DNA of 24,937 nt from a virus. Location: positions 1-24,937 of the IMG/VR virus record IMGVR_UViG_3300017725_000064. One strand, 5' to 3'. The translations under genes and the position numbers were made by a program. Positions 1-24,735 of the stretch are shown here, piece by piece. The stretch's first letter is position 1. Each line of letters opens with the position of its first letter. The notes beneath the pieces were generated by a model, which saw nothing but the letters and a program-made list of their open reading frames with translations, did not search any database and was not told the DNA's origin.

Positions 1-116
1 CATGGTTAATGAACCTGACAATTCAAAATGATTTTATGATCAGTTCTGATAAAGTTTTGACCATTGTTGTACCCAATAGTAAATTGAAAACAAAGTATGA
101 GGATCTATTGAAGTGA
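1..116 (+). CDS. C-terminal end of an unidentified upstream protein (partial)
   Basis: An open frame enters from the left edge (codons from base 3) and ends at TGA 114-116, giving 37 residues that finish in KTKYEDLLK. The stop overlaps the GTG start of the polymerase gene (GTGA), so the two cistrons are probably translationally coupled. In T4 the gene just before 43 is the translational repressor regA, but I see no convincing match to the RegA C-terminus, so the identity is left open. The tail has a short hydrophobic strand (VLTIVVP) followed by a charged helix. Confidence 0.6.
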   Translation, partial: WLMNLTIQNDFMISSDKVLTIVVPNSKLKTKYEDLLK

Positions 117-1573
117 GGTTTTATACCAACGTCCAGATGATCGGAAACAATTTTCTCGTCCGTGGATATGAGGATGGGCAAAAAGTGATGTTCCAAGAGA
201 AGTATTCTCCCACTCTTTTTGTAAAATCTAAGAGAGAGACCAAGTACCGTACACTTGAGGGTGAACATGTTGAACCCATCAAACCTGGATTGGTAAGAGA
301 CTGCAGAGACTTCATCAAAAAGTATGATGGTGTAGAGGGATTTAAGGTTTATGGGAATGAGAGATATCAGTATCAATATATTTCTGATAAGTATCCTGAG
401 CAGGAGATCAAGTTTGATCTAAACAAGATTGGACTGGTCACCATGGATATTGAGGTACAGTCTGAAGAGGGATTCCCTAGTCCTGATTCATGTTCTGAGG
501 AGATGTTATCTATCTCAATTCAAGATTATACTACTAAACAGATTACTACCTGGGGTCGTCATCCATATACCCCCTCACAGAATAATGTGACTTATCATTA
601 TCATAGTGATGAGATTGCTATGCTTGAATCTTTTTTGTATTGGTGGGAACAGAATACTCCTGATGTGATCACTGGTTGGAATGTTCGTCTATATGATATT
701 CCATATCTCTGTGGTCGTATGTCACGAATCATGGGTGATAAGAAAATGAAACAACTTTCACCCTGGAAGATGGTAGATCATCAGGTGATTGGTATCTCTG
801 GTCGTGAATATAATGTCTATTCGATTTCTGGTGTTACTACACTTGACTACCTGGAACTCTATAAGAAATTTACTTATGTGAATCGTGAGTCCTATAGATT
901 GGACTTTATTGCTGAGGTTGAACTAGGACAGAAGAAACTAGACCACAGTGAGTTTGATACTTTTAAGGACTTCTATAGGGGAAACTGGAAGAAGTTCATT
1001 GATTACAACATCAAAGACGTGGAACTTGTTGACCGTTTGGAAGACAAAATGAAACTGATTGAGTTGGTCATCACCATGGCATTTGATGCAAAGGTGAACT
1101 TCATTGATCCTATGGCTCAAGTCCGTATGTGGGATACGATTATCTACAACTACCTCAAGAAGAGAAATATTGTCATTCCACCTAGGAATACATCTGAGAA
1201 GAGTGATAAGTTTGCTGGGGCTTATGTTAAAGAACCTAAACCAGGTGTTTATGAATATGTGGTATCCTTTGACTTGAACTCTCTGTATCCTCACCTGATG
1301 ATGCAGTATAATATCTCTCCCGAAACACTCATGAGTGAAAAACATCCTAGTGTCACAGTGGACAAGATCCTAGGTGAGAAACTTAACTTTGAACTTTATA
1401 GCGACTATGCTGTCTGTGCTAATGGAGCTATGTTCCGTAAAGATACCAAGGGTTTCTTGCCTGAATTGATGGAGAAGATGTATGCTGATCGTAAGGTCTT
1501 CAAGGGTAAGATGTTGAAGTCAAAACAGAAATTAGTTGACATTGAAGCTGAAATGAAACGGAGGGGAATCTGA
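113..1573 (+). CDS. 43: DNA polymerase gp43, N-terminal half (exonuclease and palm motif A), split gene
   Basis: This is the first half of the T4-type family B replicative DNA polymerase, 486 aa. The 3'-5' exonuclease motifs are visible: Exo I MDIE (D112, E114), Exo II GWNVRLYDIPYL (D195) and Exo III YNIKDVEL (Y298, D302). Polymerase motif A is SFDLNSLYPHL (D387). The frame then runs into the fingers region and stops at KRRGI before motif B. T4 gp43 is about 900 aa, so this is roughly half; motifs B and C are in a separate ORF at 2726-3892. The GTG start overlaps the preceding TGA. The stop overlaps the purM ATG (TGATG). The frame ends at a natural junction with a strong SD in its last codons, so this does not look like a random frameshift. 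Function requires association with the C-terminal half, which is inferred from split polymerases known in some Aeromonas T4-like phages. Confidence 0.95.
   Translation: MRFYTNVQMIGNNFLVRGYEDGQKVMFQEKYSPTLFVKSKRETKYRTLEGEHVEPIKPGLVRDCRDFIKKYDGVEGFKVYGNERYQYQYISDKYPEQEIKFDLNKIGLVTMDIEVQSEEGFPSPDSCSEEMLSISIQDYTTKQITTWGRHPYTPSQNNVTYHYHSDEIAMLESFLYWWEQNTPDVITGWNVRLYDIPYLCGRMSRIMGDKKMKQLSPWKMVDHQVIGISGREYNVYSISGVTTLDYLELYKKFTYVNRESYRLDFIAEVELGQKKLDHSEFDTFKDFYRGNWKKFIDYNIKDVELVDRLEDKMKLIELVITMAFDAKVNFIDPMAQVRMWDTIIYNYLKKRNIVIPPRNTSEKSDKFAGAYVKEPKPGVYEYVVSFDLNSLYPHLMMQYNISPETLMSEKHPSVTVDKILGEKLNFELYSDYAVCANGAMFRKDTKGFLPELMEKMYADRKVFKGKMLKSKQKLVDIEAEMKRRGI
1560..1566 (+). promoter_or_regulatory. Strong ribosome binding site for purM
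   Basis: GGAGGGG lies 6 nt before the purM ATG at 1573 and is made from the last codons of the polymerase N-half (Arg-Arg-Gly). It is one of the best Shine-Dalgarno matches in the window. By contrast the C-terminal polymerase half at 2726 has no recognisable SD. Confidence 0.7.
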
Positions 1574-2505
1574 TGGACTACAAAACTTCTGGAGTTGATA
1601 TTATTAAGGGTAGATCTTTTGTTGAATACATTAAGGTACTGGCACCTAAGATTGACGGTGGATTTAGTGGAATGATGGAGATCCCATCAGGATATGAGAA
1701 ACCCGTGTTGGTATCTGGAGCTGATGGTGTCGGAACTAAAATGAATATCTGTAGGATTGCTCATGATTACACCACTATTGGTCAGGATCTTGTTGCTATG
1801 TGCGTTAATGACGTTATATGTTCCGGTGCTAAACCATTATATTTTTTAGATTATGTCTCTACCAAAACACTTGATGCTAATGTCAGCGACATTGTATATG
1901 GGATTAATGTTGGTTGTACAATAGCGGGGATGGAACTAATAGGTGGAGAAACTGCAGAACATTTCAGACAAAATGATTATGATGTTGCTGGCTTCTGTAC
2001 TGGTATTGTAGAGAAGAATGATATTGTTGATGGTAGAAACATCCAAGCGGGTGATGTAGTCATTGGTATTGAGAGTAATGGACTTCATAGTAATGGATAC
2101 ACACTCATCAATGATATGTTGTGGAGAAATTACATTAAATATAAAGAGATGCCTGAGTTGTTGAGACCAACTACCATCTATGCTCGTCTAATCCAGCACC
2201 TATTGGATGAGGTTCCTATCCTAGGTATGGCACATATCACTGGAGGTGGTATCCCTGAGAACCTTCCTAGGTGTCTTCCATCAGGTCTTACAGTTGATGT
2301 TGATTACTCTTCTTGGGAGAGACCAGAACTCTTCAATAAGATCCAACAGGCAGGAGACATTGATGAGGAAGAAATGAGAAATGTATTCAATCTAGGTATT
2401 GGATTCTGTTTAGTTGTACCACAAGATGTGGTAGAACATACTCAGACTATTATTGCCGATAGACCATATGGTATGAGATCATGGATTATTGGAGAAGTAA
2501 AATGA
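1573..2505 (+). CDS. purM: Phosphoribosylaminoimidazole synthetase (AIR synthetase, PurM)
   Basis: PurM converts formylglycinamidine ribonucleotide plus ATP to aminoimidazole ribonucleotide in purine synthesis. The 310-aa product is slightly shorter than the usual bacterial enzyme (about 345 aa). Family signatures are clear: YKTSGVDI at the N-terminus, VLVSGADGVGTK (bacteria usually have GTDGVGTK), DLVAMCVNDVICSGAKP, FLDY, ELIGGETAEH, SNGLHSNGYT, HITGGGIPENLPR and FNLGIGF. The ATG overlaps the stop of the polymerase N-half and has a strong SD. The stop overlaps the next ATG (ATGA). purM is a known cyanophage auxiliary gene thought to support nucleotide supply, but here it sits between the two halves of the DNA polymerase. 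The C-terminus (PYGMRSWIIGEVK) appears intact. Confidence 0.95.
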   Translation: MDYKTSGVDIIKGRSFVEYIKVLAPKIDGGFSGMMEIPSGYEKPVLVSGADGVGTKMNICRIAHDYTTIGQDLVAMCVNDVICSGAKPLYFLDYVSTKTLDANVSDIVYGINVGCTIAGMELIGGETAEHFRQNDYDVAGFCTGIVEKNDIVDGRNIQAGDVVIGIESNGLHSNGYTLINDMLWRNYIKYKEMPELLRPTTIYARLIQHLLDEVPILGMAHITGGGIPENLPRCLPSGLTVDVDYSSWERPELFNKIQQAGDIDEEEMRNVFNLGIGFCLVVPQDVVEHTQTIIADRPYGMRSWIIGEVK

Positions 2506-2720
2506 CGGACAAAATTGACACACAGGGTATGAGTCTTCCTGGTGGATCAAAGAAACCAAGTAGTTTTACTCCCATGAAGGTCACACCTAGGAGGTTGTTA
2601 TCACCTGAATTTGTGAAAGAAATGAAGATCCTTATCAATGAGATTCTGGATCAACGTGAAGGTAAGATGGATTATGATTCTTACTTTGATGTAGATAAGT
2701 TCAAGTACGATGTCAAGTAA
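2502..2720 (+). CDS. 72-aa protein of unknown function between purM and the polymerase C-half
   Basis: The ATG overlaps the purM stop (ATGA) with GGAG at 2491-2494 as SD, which is preferred over the upstream ATG at 2481. The protein has a flexible Gly/Ser/Pro-rich N-terminus (SLPGGSKKPSSFTP), then a predicted helix (SPEFVKEMKILINEILDQRE) and an acidic/aromatic tail (YDSYFDVDKFKYDVK). It shows no polymerase, intein or homing-endonuclease motif. It lies inside the insert that interrupts gene 43, 5 nt before the polymerase C-half. I do not recognise the family. Confidence 0.75.
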   Translation: MTDKIDTQGMSLPGGSKKPSSFTPMKVTPRRLLSPEFVKEMKILINEILDQREGKMDYDSYFDVDKFKYDVK

Positions 2721-2725
2721 ATAAT

Positions 2726-3892
2726 ATGGGATACTTAATCGGTGGTGCTGGAGAGGGACCTGATCAGAAGATTATTGAGTCTTCTGGTAATCAGTACGAA
2801 AAACTCTCTGACAGTGAGTTGAGAAAACTCAGAGATCAGACAGAGAAAGATGTTGCAAAGTTCAACAATTTCCAAATGGCTAGGAAGATTGCTCTTAACT
2901 CTGCTTATGGGGCTATCGGTAATCAGTATTTTAGGTACTACAAGCTGGCCAATGCAGAAGCAATTACACTCTCCGGGCAGGTGTCTATCCGGTGGATAGA
3001 AAATAAAGTAAACATCTATCTAAATAGTTTGTTAAAGACAGAAGATGTAGATTATGTTATCGCATCTGACACTGATTCAATCTATCTTAATTTTGGACCT
3101 CTTGTTGATAAATTTTTTAGCAATAAGCTCGGCGAGAAAACTAAGATTGTGGGGATCATTGACCAGATCTGCCAGGATAAACTGGAACCGTTTATTGAGA
3201 AAAGTTACCAGAAACTGGCGACATATGTGAATGCATATGATCAAAAGATGCAGATGAAGCGAGAGAACATCGCTGATCGCGGAATCTGGACAGCAAAGAA
3301 AAGATATATTCTTAACGTATGGGATAGTGAGGGTGTTCGTTATGAGGACCCAAAACTAAAAATCATGGGGATTGAAGCAGTAAAATCCTCAACACCTGCA
3401 CCTTGTAGGGATATGATTAGGGGTGCTTTGAAACTGATGATGAACGGGACTGAGGAGGATGTCATCAAATATATTGATGAATGTAGGGTTAAATTTAATA
3501 ATATGTCACCGGAGGAGATTGCCTTTCCTCGTAGTGTATCTGATGTACACAAACATAAGAACCATTCTACAATTTATGGTAAGGGATGTCCTATGCATGT
3601 CCGTGGGTGTCTCCTACATAATCATTTAGTGAAGGAGTTAAAACTTGAGTCCAAGTATTCTTACATTAATAATGGTGACAAGATTAAGTTCATTCACTTA
3701 TCAAAACCAAACCCTATCAGGGAAAATGTAGTTTCCTTTGCCTCAGACTTCCCATATGAGTTTGGACTTGGCAAATACATTGATTATGAACTACAATTCA
3801 ACAAAGCCTTCCTTTACCCAGTAAAGGTAATTCTTGACGCCATTGGTTGGAATGTTGAGAAGACTGTAAACTTAGAATTATTTTTTGGATAA
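2726..3892 (+). CDS. 43: DNA polymerase gp43, C-terminal half (motifs B and C, thumb), split gene
   Basis: 388 aa completing the family B polymerase. Motif B is RKIALNSAYG (K54, N58, Y61-G62) and motif C is the catalytic SDTDS (D115, D117). The KKRYILN segment (KxY motif) and SSTPAP follow, and the end VNLELFFG resembles the T4 gp43 tail LDFLFG that binds the sliding clamp. The first 25 residues (Gly-rich, GYLIGGAGEGPDQ) have no clear T4 counterpart; residues 28-50 form the helical fingers segment before motif B. The two halves total 874 aa, close to an intact T4 gp43. No good SD precedes the ATG, so expression may depend on readthrough coupling from the 72-aa ORF. The stop overlaps the uvsX ATG (TAATG). 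Confidence 0.95.
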   Translation: MGYLIGGAGEGPDQKIIESSGNQYEKLSDSELRKLRDQTEKDVAKFNNFQMARKIALNSAYGAIGNQYFRYYKLANAEAITLSGQVSIRWIENKVNIYLNSLLKTEDVDYVIASDTDSIYLNFGPLVDKFFSNKLGEKTKIVGIIDQICQDKLEPFIEKSYQKLATYVNAYDQKMQMKRENIADRGIWTAKKRYILNVWDSEGVRYEDPKLKIMGIEAVKSSTPAPCRDMIRGALKLMMNGTEEDVIKYIDECRVKFNNMSPEEIAFPRSVSDVHKHKNHSTIYGKGCPMHVRGCLLHNHLVKELKLESKYSYINNGDKIKFIHLSKPNPIRENVVSFASDFPYEFGLGKYIDYELQFNKAFLYPVKVILDAIGWNVEKTVNLELFFG

Positions 3893-4902
3893 TGGATTTT
3901 CTAAAAGACATAGTAAAAGAGATCGGAGATGACTATACAAGACTCGCAGCCGACATCGACGAAACAGAAACTTTCGTGGACACAGGTTCGTACATCTTTA
4001 ACGGACTGTGTTCAGGTAGTATATTTGGTGGCGTATCTGGGAATAAGATTACTGCCATTGCTGGGGAGTCTTCTACTGGAAAAACTTTCTTTAGCTTGGC
4101 AGTCGTCAAGAATTTCCTTGATTCTAATCCTGATGGGTATTGTCTATATTTTGACACTGAAGCCGCTGTCAATAAGGGTCTACTCGCAAGTCGTGGGGTA
4201 GATCTAAATCGTCTTGTGGTGGTCAACGTGGTCACCATTGAAGAGTTCAGATCCAAGGCCCTTAAGGCTGTGGACATTTATCTCAAAACCCAAGCAGAAG
4301 ACCGCAAACCCTGTATGTTTGTGTTAGACTCACTTGGTATGTTGTCTACAGAGAAAGAGATCACAGACGTACTCAACGATAAAATGGTTCGTGATATGAC
4401 AAAGTCACAACTTGTCAAAGGTGCGTTTCGTATGTTGACTCTGAAACTAGGACAAGCAAACATCCCCATGATAGTTACAAATCACACTTATGATGTTATC
4501 GGATCATACGTTCCCACCAAAGAGATGGGCGGAGGCAGCGGTCTCAAATATGCGGCAAGTACAATCATTTATCTCTCAAAAAAGAAAGAAAAGGATGGAA
4601 CAGAAGTCGTTGGAAATCTTATTAAAGCTAAGACAGCAAAGTCGCGTCTAAGTAAGGAGAACAAAGATGTTACGGTACGCCTTTATTATGATGAGCGTGG
4701 TCTCGATCGATATTTTGGTCTTCTTGAGTTGGGTGAACTGGGAGGTCTGTGGAAAAATGTTGCAGGTCGTTATGAGATGAATGGTAAGAAGGTCTATGCT
4801 AAAGAGATCTTGAAAAATCCTGACAAATATTTTACTGAAGAGGTCTTACAGAAACTAGATGAAATCGCAAAAGAAGAGTTCTCATATGGTTCGGCAGTAT
4901 GA
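3892..4902 (+). CDS. uvsX: UvsX RecA-like recombinase
   Basis: UvsX is the T4-type strand-exchange ATPase used in recombination-dependent replication and repair. The 336-aa product has Walker A GESSTGKT (58-65), an FDTEAA segment (88-92) like the RecA catalytic glutamate region, Walker B CMFVLDSLGML (141-151) and the loop EMGGGSGLKYAAS (211-223). Length is slightly below T4 UvsX (about 390 aa). It overlaps gene 43 by one base at its start and the oxygenase gene at its end, inside the replication operon. Confidence 0.95.
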   Translation: MDFLKDIVKEIGDDYTRLAADIDETETFVDTGSYIFNGLCSGSIFGGVSGNKITAIAGESSTGKTFFSLAVVKNFLDSNPDGYCLYFDTEAAVNKGLLASRGVDLNRLVVVNVVTIEEFRSKALKAVDIYLKTQAEDRKPCMFVLDSLGMLSTEKEITDVLNDKMVRDMTKSQLVKGAFRMLTLKLGQANIPMIVTNHTYDVIGSYVPTKEMGGGSGLKYAASTIIYLSKKKEKDGTEVVGNLIKAKTAKSRLSKENKDVTVRLYYDERGLDRYFGLLELGELGGLWKNVAGRYEMNGKKVYAKEILKNPDKYFTEEVLQKLDEIAKEEFSYGSAV

Positions 4903-22689: not shown

Positions 22690-22693
22690 TCTT

Positions 22694-22767
22694 GGGTCAG
22701 TAGCTCAGTGGAATAGAGCCACGCACTTCTAATGCGTTGGTCGGGGGTTCGAATCCCTCCTGACCCG
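22694..22767 (+). tRNA. tRNA-Arg (anticodon TCT)
   Basis: Full cloverleaf: acceptor GGGTCAG/CTGACCC, D arm TAGCTCAGTGGAATAGAGC, anticodon stem ACGCA/TGCGT with loop CTTCTAA (TCT at 22728-22730), T arm GGGGGTTCGAATCCCTC. No 3' CCA encoded. It reads AGA codons. Confidence 0.95.
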
Positions 22768-22772
22768 TTCAA

Positions 22773-22845
22773 TCCTCTATAGCTCAGTTGGTAGAGCAGG
22801 TGACTGTTAATCACCCTGTCCCTGGTTCGAGTCCAGGTGGAGGAG
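22773..22845 (+). tRNA. tRNA-Asn (anticodon GTT)
   Basis: Acceptor TCCTCTA/TGGAGGA (one G-U), anticodon stem GGTGA/TCACC with loop CTGTTAA (GTT at 22806-22808), T arm CTGGTTCGAGTCCAG. No CCA encoded. It begins 5 nt after tRNA-Arg, so the two are likely cut from one transcript. Confidence 0.95.
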
Positions 22846-22848
22846 TTA

Positions 22849-22929
22849 GGAACTTGAGACGTTCCAACCAAAGGTGCCACTAATACTTGGTGGAATTAAC
22901 CCCCTTTGGATGTTCAGGAAGGGTTCCTG
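22849..22929 (+). other. Structured spacer after tRNA-Asn
   Basis: Three hairpins: GGAAC-TTGAGAC-GTTCC (22849-22865, loop as in the hairpin at 22625); CCAAAGG/CCTTTGG (22868-22874 with 22903-22909) enclosing CCAC/GTGG; and CAGGAA-GGG-TTCCTG (22915-22929). No complete tRNA cloverleaf fits, and no gene is seen here or in 22930-23000. It may be an RNA processing spacer or an unannotated structured RNA. Confidence 0.5.
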
Positions 22930-23000
22930 TCCTACTTCATTATAAACTGTCAGTATACTGGGTGTGACGCCCATATAGCATACGGATAAGTATAGTGTAT

Positions 23001-23072
23001 GCCTCCGTAGCTCAGTGGTAGAGCAGGGCTTTTGTAAAGCTCAGGTCGCAAGTTCAAATCTTGTCAGAGGCT
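23001..23072 (+). tRNA. tRNA-Thr (anticodon TGT)
   Basis: Acceptor GCCTCCG/CAGAGGC (one mismatch), D arm TAGCTCAGTGGTAGAGC, anticodon loop TTTGTAA (TGT at 23033-23035), T arm GCAAGTTCAAATCTTGT. The acceptor mismatch is the only irregularity. No CCA encoded. Confidence 0.93.
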
Positions 23073-23088
23073 TCGGGTTAATCCCGAA
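23072..23088 (+). terminator. Short hairpin directly after tRNA-Thr
   Basis: TTCGGG-TTAAT-CCCGAA, a 6-bp stem sharing its first base with the tRNA discriminator, followed by TTTCCC. It could terminate or mark the 3' end for processing. Confidence 0.45.
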
Positions 23089-23112
23089 TTTCCCTTCCGT
23101 GTGAAGAGGTCT

Positions 23113-23132
23113 GGGGAGTGTTATCACTCCCC
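23113..23132 (+). terminator. Hairpin before the talC late promoter
   Basis: GGGGAGTG-TTAT-CACTCCCC, a perfect 8-bp stem (9 with the flanking T-A), 10 nt before TATAAATA. There is no T run after it, so termination efficiency is uncertain. Confidence 0.55.
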
Positions 23133-23141
23133 ACCACTTGC

Positions 23142-23149
23142 TATAAATA
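23142..23149 (+). promoter_or_regulatory. T4-type late promoter TATAAATA for talC-def
   Basis: A perfect box (CTATAAATA) 36 nt before the talC ATG at 23178 and just after a hairpin, the same terminator-then-late-promoter layout as at 15302-15338. Confidence 0.78.
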
Positions 23150-23177
23150 TTACTCATCTATTCAGTTCCAAGTTTCA

Positions 23178-23846
23178 ATGAAAATCTTTTTAGATACTGC
23201 TGATACAGGTATCATTCGTCAGTGTTATAATACTGGTTTGATTGATGGAGTCACTACTAATCCTACTCTCATCATGAAGAGTGGTAAAAGTCCTGTTGAT
23301 GTCTACGAGACAATCAAAGATATTGGCATCAAAGATATCAGTATGGAAGTCGTAGGTGACTTTAATGAGATGGTAAAGGAGGGTCAGAGACTCTATAATC
23401 GTTTTGGTTCTGTAGCTACCATTAAAGTACCTTGTACTGAAGATGGTTTGATGGCTTGTAATTACCTTTCTAAAGAGGGTATCAATGTGAATGTCACACT
23501 GATCTTCTCAGCGGCTCAGGCAATCTTAGCAGCTAAGGCTGGAGCTAAGTATGTCTCTCCTTTCATAGGTAGATTGGATGATCAATCCGTCGCTGGTCTT
23601 GAAGTAGTCAGGTCTATTTCTGAGTTGTATCGTATTCATGGTATGAAAACTCAGGTTCTGTCAGCTTCAATTCGTAGTGTTCAGAGGGTTGTTAGGTCTT
23701 ATTATAATGGAGCTCAGGTAGTGACAATGCCTCCTGAAATCTTTAAGAAAATGTATGATCATATACTAACTGATAAAGGTCTTGAGATCTTTGATAAAGA
23801 TTGGGCAGAAGTTACTCATAGGGTATCTCAACCAGATGAAGAGTAA
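23178..23846 (+). CDS. talC: Transaldolase-like protein TalC
   Basis: 222 aa, the short fructose-6-phosphate aldolase/TalC type. Motifs are MKIFLDTADT (start), DGVTTNPTL (23-31), TIKVPCTEDGL with the Schiff-base Lys K83, NVTLIFSAAQA, and YVSPFIGRLDD. ATG 23178 matches the family start; an upstream in-frame ATG at 23118 lies before the late promoter and is rejected. In cyanophages TalC is thought to push host carbon through the pentose phosphate pathway toward NADPH and ribose for nucleotides. It is followed by def with a TAATG overlap. Confidence 0.95.
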   Translation: MKIFLDTADTGIIRQCYNTGLIDGVTTNPTLIMKSGKSPVDVYETIKDIGIKDISMEVVGDFNEMVKEGQRLYNRFGSVATIKVPCTEDGLMACNYLSKEGINVNVTLIFSAAQAILAAKAGAKYVSPFIGRLDDQSVAGLEVVRSISELYRIHGMKTQVLSASIRSVQRVVRSYYNGAQVVTMPPEIFKKMYDHILTDKGLEIFDKDWAEVTHRVSQPDEE

Positions 23847-24277
23847 TGATTTTAGAGATACTAAAAGATGGTGATGAGATACTAAGAAAAGAATCTTGTC
23901 CTGTTATTCTGACTGATGAGGTTAGAAAGTTAATCGAAGATATGAAAGAAACTATGATTCATGCTGATGGTATGGGTCTATCAGCTCCTCAAGTTGGTAA
24001 GAATATCAGAGTGATTGTTGTTAAACTTTTGGATAATAAAACCCAAGAAATGATTAATCCTGTTATTAAGTGGCATTCCATAAACACTTGTAATCTTCAG
24101 GAAGGTTGTCTCAGCATTCCTGGTATGTACTTTGATTTGACTAGACCAATAAAGATATCAGTCAAGTTTCAAGATTTGAGCGGTAAGTATAAAAAGTGGA
24201 AACTCAAATCATGGGAATCTCGTGTTGTTCAACATGAGATTGATCATCTAAATGGTGTGTTGATGACAGACTACTAG
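23846..24277 (+). CDS. def: Peptide deformylase
   Basis: Removes the N-formyl group from new proteins; cyanophage enzymes are thought to favour photosystem proteins such as D1. The 143-aa product is shorter than typical bacterial PDF (about 170 aa) and ends soon after the metal site, as in other cyanophage PDFs. Motif I GMGLSAPQ (42-49), motif II EGCLSIP with metal ligand C88, and motif III QHEIDH with H130, E131 and H134 are intact. It overlaps talC by one base. The last base of its TAG stop is the first base of tRNA-Val. Confidence 0.95.
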   Translation: MILEILKDGDEILRKESCPVILTDEVRKLIEDMKETMIHADGMGLSAPQVGKNIRVIVVKLLDNKTQEMINPVIKWHSINTCNLQEGCLSIPGMYFDLTRPIKISVKFQDLSGKYKKWKLKSWESRVVQHEIDHLNGVLMTDY

Positions 24278-24348
24278 GGAGATTAGCTCAGAGGTAGAGC
24301 ACCTCGTTTACACCGAGATTGTCACAAGTTCGATCCTTGTATCTCCCA
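24277..24348 (+). tRNA. tRNA-Val (anticodon TAC)
   Basis: Acceptor GGGAGAT/ATCTCCC, D arm TAGCTCAGAGGTAGAGC, anticodon loop TTTACAC (TAC at 24309-24311), T arm ACAAGTTCGATCCTTGT. The outer pair of the anticodon stem is mismatched. Its first base is the last base of the def stop codon, so processing of the tRNA removes the def stop region. No CCA encoded. Confidence 0.93.
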
Positions 24349-24357
24349 TCACAGAAG

Positions 24358-24375
24358 TTATCTCAGTTTAGATAA
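24358..24375 (+). other. AT-rich hairpin after tRNA-Val
   Basis: TTATCT-CAGTTT-AGATAA, 6-bp AT-rich stem, weak as a terminator. It lies in the 62-nt gap between tRNA-Val and the Phd-like ORF. TATAAT at 24400-24405 is too near the next ATG and has no -35. Confidence 0.35.
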
Positions 24376-24410
24376 TCTGAAGTATGATTCTTTTATACAT
24401 ATAATCAACT

Positions 24411-24584
24411 ATGAAATTTTATTCAGTGAAATACTGGCAAGAGAATTGGGAAACTCTTATGGAAAGAGTTGAAAATGGAGAGACAATAGGTATAGAGAAT
24501 GACAAAGGGGAAAAGGCAGTGATGGTTCCGGCGGATGATGAACTCATACGCATATACACAGAACAGAACAATGAAGGATCCTGA
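24411..24584 (+). CDS. Phd/YefM antitoxin-like small protein
   Basis: 57 aa, starting MKFYSVKYWQENWETLMERV. The layout matches Phd/YefM antitoxins: a first beta strand (KFYSV), a long helix (QENWETLMERVENG), strand (ETIGIEN), turn (DKGEK) and strand (AVMVPADD), then an acidic tail. The GE.AVMVP segment parallels the family G(E/K)xxAVL(V/M) motif. No partner toxin gene is adjacent in the window. No clear SD precedes the ATG. The stop codon TGA is immediately followed by tRNA-Ile. Similar solitary antitoxin-like genes may bind host toxins or act as regulators (inference). Confidence 0.7.
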   Translation: MKFYSVKYWQENWETLMERVENGETIGIENDKGEKAVMVPADDELIRIYTEQNNEGS

Positions 24585-24656
24585 GGGACTGTCGCATATT
24601 GGTTAATGCTCGCTCCTTATAAGGGCGCAAACTGGGTTCAATTCTCAGCAGTCCTA
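24585..24656 (+). tRNA. tRNA-Ile (anticodon TAT)
   Basis: Acceptor GGGACTG/CAGTCCT (one G-U), D stem GCAT/ATGC, anticodon stem CGCTC/GGGCG with loop CTTATAA (TAT at 24618-24620), T arm CTGGGTTCAATTCTCAG. It starts on the base after the Phd-like stop codon. TAT is uncommon in bacteria, which usually read AUA with a lysidine-modified CAT tRNA. Confidence 0.88.
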
Positions 24657-24660
24657 CCTT

Positions 24661-24733
24661 GGGGGTTTAGCAATCTGGTGAATGCAGCAAACTCATAATT
24701 TGCCTAAGGTGAGTTCGATCCTCACAATCCCTA
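24661..24733 (+). tRNA. tRNA with CAT anticodon (Met or Ile-lysidine)
   Basis: Acceptor GGGGGTT/AATCCCT (two G-U pairs), anticodon stem GCAAA/TTTGC with loop CTCATAA (CAT at 24694-24696), T arm GTGAGTTCGATCCTCAC. It lies 4 nt after tRNA-Ile. It may be elongator Met or an AUA-reading Ile tRNA; the sequence alone does not decide, but the TAT tRNA next to it makes Met more likely. Confidence 0.88.
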
Positions 24734-24735
24734 TT

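Follow-up and report, generated by a model that had tools for sequence, protein, structure and literature searches.

Gene organization of the gp43 locus

The IMG/VR record analyzed here (the window) has 24,937 bases and is a genome fragment that, by its gene content, comes from a T4-like marine cyanophage. Its first base lies 112 nt before gp43, the DNA polymerase gene, which is present as separate genes for an N-terminal half (N-half) and a C-terminal half (C-half), with purM and a 72-aa open reading frame (ORF) between them (Table 1). Our analysis suggests, with a probability of roughly 0.86, that the locus encodes a two-subunit gp43, in which an old fission of the finger loop was followed by the insertion of purM and the 72-aa ORF, and whose halves would assemble in trans.

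An earlier note, made from the sequence alone, described these four reading frames together with the polymerase motifs and the clamp-binding tail, and all of them were found again at the same positions. The N-half matched phrog_262 (positions 7-495) and phrog_2062, and the C-half matched phrog_262 (positions 486-852) and phrog_1918; PHROGs keeps separate families for the N- and C-halves of gp43. Exonuclease and palm motifs were present across both halves, all of them intact, and the C-half tail LELFFG aligned with LDFLFG of T4. The purM gene matched phrog_1207 end to end and passed the NCBIfam purM cutoff (TIGR00878, 330.6 vs 236.35 bits, residues 1-310). Judged from these matches it is a full-length PurM (AIR synthase), so that a complete purM does stand between the polymerase halves, as the note had claimed. 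The N-half stop TGA overlaps the purM start (TGATG), the purM stop overlaps the start of the 72-aa ORF (ATGA), and the C-half ATG lies 5 nt beyond the stop of that ORF.

Table 1. Features of the split gp43 locus in the window. SD, Shine-Dalgarno sequence; empty-site relatives are split without an insert; a slash marks the edge of the insert.
Feature	Coordinates	Strand	Remarks
gp43 N-half (43A-like)	113..1573	+	486 aa; exonuclease, N-terminal domain, palm motif A, first finger helix; GTG start
purM (AIR synthase)	1573..2505	+	310 aa, complete; SD GGAGGGG inside the 3' end of the N-half
72-aa ORF (phrog_1286), function unassigned	2502..2720	+	in other cyanophages near purS/purM
gp43 C-half (43B-like)	2726..3892	+	388 aa; MGYLIGG tip-loop head, second finger helix with motif B
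gp43 C-half, remaining parts			palm motif C, thumb, clamp-binding tail; ATG without recognizable SD (-0.5 kcal/mol)
Insert, left edge	1550..1575	+	window ..AAACGGAGGGGAATC/TGATG; empty-site relatives ..CGACGAGGTATT/AAGTAATGGG
Insert, right edge	2711..2728	+	TCAAGTAAATAAT/ATGGG (= AAGTAAATAAT-ATGGG); AAGTA of the empty site retained
uvsX (RecA-like)	3892..4902	+	next gene of the replication operon

Position of the break in the polymerase

Alignment with T4 gp43, with contiguous cyanophage gp43 and with the halves of the Aeromonas phages 44RR2.8t (44RR) and 25 placed the break between the two finger helices, in the loop that joins them. On T4 gp43 the alignment of the N-half stops at residue 491 and that of the C-half begins at residue 525. 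Because this gap corresponds to the finger-tip loop only, no catalytic sequence has been lost, and the same was seen against intact cyanophage gp43; this agrees with the earlier proposal of a split in the fingers at little or no cost in polymerase sequence. The N-half ends about 13 residues beyond the shared finger helix, and the C-half begins with a head of about 27 aa.

A fold was also predicted for the read-through product of L040, a split locus in which the halves lie in one frame with a single stop, using 42 aligned sequences. In this prediction, which is of low confidence (predicted local distance difference test score 69, predicted template modeling score 0.53), the finger helices were recovered at 448-485 and 513-562, and the stop (residue 488) sits in a disordered loop (487-511) between them. 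The idea that the MGYLIGG head is an added domain was dropped, since L040 with its one in-frame stop suggests that it is the native tip loop. The L040 junction (L040:2996-3009), TAA then GTG, is the simplest split, and read-through there could yield a full-length polymerase.

The split preceded the insertion of purM

In 11 relatives (L310, L312, L316, L320, L326, L327, L339, L340, L345, L348 and L355) the halves are 90-94% identical to those of the window and are split without an insert; in the junction AAGTAATG a 5-nt gap, AAGTA or AAATA, separates the C-half ATG from the last N-half codon that matched. Because such similar halves are split without an insert, and because AAGTA is kept at the right edge of the insert in the window, the split is read as the earlier event and the arrival of purM as the later one. 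By this comparison purM did not split the polymerase, and the split is older than the insert in the window lineage.

The earlier note had presented gene 43 as split by purM. Such an event, in which the purM cassette or a mobile element carrying it broke an intact gene 43 in the window lineage, would account for the coincidence of insert and split in the window, but it is highly improbable in view of the empty-site relatives, of ACG-2014f and S-H34, which are split with other inserts, and of S-CREM2, where the annotation lists two DNA polymerase subunits, A and B. The same conclusion was reached from 100 distinct split loci, collected partly by a pattern scan for the empty junction: in this sample, which is enriched for empty sites, the halves of 73 loci are no more than 14 nt apart, mostly with TAATG or TGATG overlaps.

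A search of other genomes for purM between polymerase fragments found it in four contigs and in a second lineage. L085 and L086, from two other metagenomes, carry the same 1155-nt insert with about 100% protein identity to the window, and L005 and L119 carry purM between the halves without the 72-aa ORF; the four derive from four metagenomes other than that of the window. Since the same arrangement occurs in independent contigs, an assembly join at 1573 or 2726, which the note had named as grounds for doubt, is ruled out.

The second, distant gp43 lineage (74-75% identical) has phrog_1132, with or without phrog_1179, then purM and mostly then purS between the halves. Its members are L023, L250 and L252, with L248 and L251 observed from the N-half end, and also L377, where phrog_1132 and purM lie between the halves. 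In L319, the end of purM forms TGATG on the C-half start. Thus, purM cassettes have entered the split junction in at least two lineages, and probably in three. A single ancestral junction purM was rejected, as the purM tree, itself weakly resolved, requires 3-4 changes for the junction purM genes. In addition, purS (PF02700) was found between polymerase halves at L023:5001-5282 and L363:10294-10572, the latter without purM.

The window purM is 85-92% identical to purM of other cyanophages, and purM with its companions (phrog_1132, purS and phrog_1286) is a recurring, movable gene set. The earlier suggestion that the insert ties expression of a purine enzyme to that of the polymerase is weakened: in many unsplit relatives purM, in the same cluster, lies just upstream of gp43, and the junction is not unusually prone to insertion, as shown below.

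Frequency and contents of split junctions

Among the nearest relatives of the N-half with both halves on the contig, about a quarter (18 of 73) are split. Gaps of more than 60 nt were found at 23 of 96 split junctions, compared with 31 of 83 junctions between the C-half and uvsX and 30 of 43 between uvsX and gp41. The junction as a special insertion hot spot was unsupported, since large gaps are no commoner there than in the neighboring operon gaps; the split junction behaves as an ordinary operon gap that takes in genes.

Two small ORFs separate the halves in the ACG-2014f isolates, and one ORF does so in S-H34. HNH endonuclease ORFs (phrog_374) lie exactly between the N-half stop and the C-half start in two separate lineages (L010 and L197), the junction of L173 holds a thioredoxin-like gene, and other junctions hold small ORFs. 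The window insert consists of purM and phrog_1286 only, with no homing endonuclease ORF. At L175:1039-1141 the halves are separated by a 101-nt spacer without ORFs, which contains a terminator-like hairpin, GGAGGGTAAAACCTCC-T6, and recalls the untranslated spacer of 44RR. Another split site in gp43, immediately following motif A, was observed at L189:690-1718, L191:4988-6001, L192:1574-2587 and L178:5015-5531; an HNH endonuclease ORF, intact in three of these contigs and decayed in L178, lies between the parts, and the C-part starts with MWKDVRKM.

Distribution of the split on the gp43 tree

The split state needs at least 6-8 changes on the gp43 tree, and a single origin was rejected because one split clade was incompatible with that tree (approximately unbiased (AU) test, p 6e-43). 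Most unsplit relatives carry a short tip, of 39 aa in the region that was compared, and a few a medium tip of 53 aa; the medium tips, such as that of RN05-S, look like re-fused split tips. The sequences that flank the tip on both sides are 92-100% identical between L059, which is split, and L215, which is unsplit. Either the tip has been exchanged by recombination, possibly driven by HNH endonucleases, or the fission has been undone many times by deletion of the tip.

It is possible that the split tip is a mobile allele, with homing by the junction HNH endonuclease converting short-tip unsplit gp43 while purM and other genes ride along. The exact stop-to-start placement of the HNH ORFs in two lineages, the departure of the split state from the gp43 tree and the near identity of L059 and L215 on both sides of the tip are all consistent with homing. 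However, HNH ORFs occur in only 2 of the 100 split loci, where they interrupt already split genes, and repeated loss of the split by tip deletion, for which the apparently re-fused medium tips speak, gives much the same pattern; we therefore hold homing to be a tentative explanation, clearly less probable than the reading given at the outset. A wider version seems slightly more doubtful still, namely that the split is a laterally spreading allele, moved by HNH homing, which would make a neutral docking gap within the replication operon for purM, purS, thioredoxin and perhaps petE, repeatedly loaded, swapped and lost, with shifted translation of the second subunit.

Selection, assembly and translation of the two halves

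The ratio of nonsynonymous to synonymous substitution rates (dN/dS), computed against L005, L327 and L345, was 0.03-0.06 for both halves and 0.12-0.17 for purM, from which both halves are estimated to be under strong purifying selection (dN/dS about 0.04). The incompleteness of the genome would leave room for a decaying polymerase at this locus, with replication by another enzyme, but this is very improbable with all motifs intact, with such low dN/dS in both halves and with synteny to uvsX and gp41 kept across many phages.

Precedents also exist for joining of the parts into a single chain after expression: gp43 of Aeromonas T4-like phages is known to carry a split intein (Aes123 PolB1) (PMC11923092) or a group I intron (PMC2993671). 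For the window locus we give such joining very little credence. No Hint or intein domain was found on the polymerase halves, as neither the N-half tail nor the C-half head matched an intein and both are too short for intein parts; no Rfam intron match was found at E up to 1 within 1200-3200; and the empty sites are plain stop-start overlaps. The C-half at these sites is in the same relative frame in all but L040, which is forced by the stop-start overlap, and joining by a ribosomal frameshift is ruled out where purM intervenes.

The halves of the split Aeromonas gp43 co-purify and have polymerase activity (PMC2988022). Selection, intact motifs and this precedent together indicate that the two halves in the window most likely assemble in trans, and the need for such assembly, raised in the earlier note, is supported.

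The SD energy of purM was -10.0 kcal/mol, in line with the strong site described in the note, whereas that of the C-half was -0.5 kcal/mol in the window, 0.0 kcal/mol in L005 and -7.3 kcal/mol at the empty sites. As read from the sequences, purM in the window has taken over the ribosome-binding site from which empty-site relatives translate the C-half, and the C-half is left with almost none. The window C-half is likely translated by reinitiation from the upstream ORF; in L005, where the purM stop lies 33 nt from the C-half start, reinitiation is less certain.

In some split loci no ATG, GTG or TTG was present at the homologous C-half start, which reads ATT (L001:5845) or ATC (L282:3501) in ACG-2014f and ATT at L010:4734 and L197:2361. 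These non-ATG starts have GAGG or GGAGG 5 nt upstream, and L010 also has an in-frame GTG 15 nt upstream. Initiation of the C-half at AUU or AUC is possible in ACG-2014f and the HNH-bearing contigs. In the deposited ACG-2014f annotation the start of the C-half is set about 50 residues too far downstream for the finger helix.

Several points weigh against an old fission with assembly in trans. Trans assembly of the cyanophage split gp43 rests on analogy, and a second polymerase gene may exist elsewhere in the genome, as the window starts 112 nt before gp43. The lack of an SD leaves an adequate supply of the C-half unexplained. Furthermore, L286 (L286:1-1188, minus strand) has an N-half 99% identical to that of the window, followed by purM (85%) and the plastocyanin gene petE, and the contig ends before any C-half. 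Synonymous divergence (dS) in L286 is 0.55 for purM, far above the 0.11 for the N-half, which suggests that purM was replaced in place.

In the proposed two-subunit scheme, comparison of loci shows an old fission in the loop between the finger helices, simplest as a TAATG stop-start overlap, which yielded separate N- and C-genes. The junction then became an ordinary operon gap, where genes could be inserted without touching either half, and the empty-site relatives show that purM and the 72-aa ORF were inserted there in the window lineage. Translation of purM would start from the ribosome-binding site of the empty-state C-half, and that of the C-half would probably depend on reinitiation or coupling from the upstream ORF. 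The two polypeptides would most likely come together in trans, with contact at the palm and finger interface, and form an active polymerase.

The gene order of the window is gp43, uvsX, gp41, a DNA methyltransferase gene, a primase-like gene, nrdA, nrdB and a transaldolase gene; six tRNA genes (Arg, Asn, Thr, Val, Ile and Met), at 22693-24734, lie beside the transaldolase gene.

Comparison with known split genes and implications

Earlier descriptions present split gp43 as a peculiarity of a small number of Aeromonas phages. In the window, consecutive cistrons hold N- and C-parts that together make up the whole PolB protein except the tip loop, the break lies in the finger tip, where 44RR and phage 25 are also split, the catalytic motifs are kept, and both cistrons are under purifying selection. 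The polymerase itself is a known split T4-type gp43, and the novelty is an auxiliary metabolic gene as the insert. A literature search, covering open-licence papers only, found no paper on a cyanophage split gp43 or on a metabolic gene between polymerase halves.

In the 43A and 43B genes of 44RR and phage 25 the break falls in the same part of the finger tip as in the window (44RR_A ends ..IKKILASRGVKLDH and 44RR_B starts MELELFRDFNEEELTYLNTLSTDEL), and the halves are similar in size, 498/391 aa in 44RR and 486/388 aa in the window. The intervening DNA varies in Aeromonas phages, with 49 nt in 44RR and a homing endonuclease gene in phage 25. The window differs in that its insert is a metabolic gene and a small ORF rather than an untranslated spacer or an endonuclease, and in that its C-half, of a cyanophage lineage, has no intron and has the head MGYLIGG.

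ACG-2014f, S-H34 and S-CREM2 share with the window the split point and the operon position before uvsX and gp41, and the ACG-2014f C-half has the same GYLIGG head, which the Makaravirus C-half lacks. Unlike the window, the inserts of this group are small ORFs (phrog_3538, phrog_3571 and an unassigned 98-aa ORF) without purM. The neighbors of cyanomyovirus purM (phrog_1207), namely phrog_1132, purS and phrog_1286, recur as one gene set. Whereas purM stands between polymerase halves in the window, its place elsewhere is ahead of gp43, between gp44 and gp62, or in another region. In other phages, nrdA is split by mobE (Aeh1) and gene 39/60 by mobA (T4) (PMC2988022). As in the window, an essential phage enzyme is made there in separately translated, cooperating parts (PMC2988022), but those inserts are homing endonucleases.

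In conclusion, uncultured marine cyanophages commonly carry the same finger-tip split, which is scattered over the gp43 tree and provides an insertion point able to hold metabolic genes. The loci form a natural series of states: a short contiguous tip, a fused medium tip, an in-frame stop, a stop-start overlap, an endonuclease in the gap and a metabolic cassette in the gap. This series lets one ask how an enzyme that is essential can withstand being split, whether a split can be undone, and by what route core operons acquire auxiliary metabolic genes.

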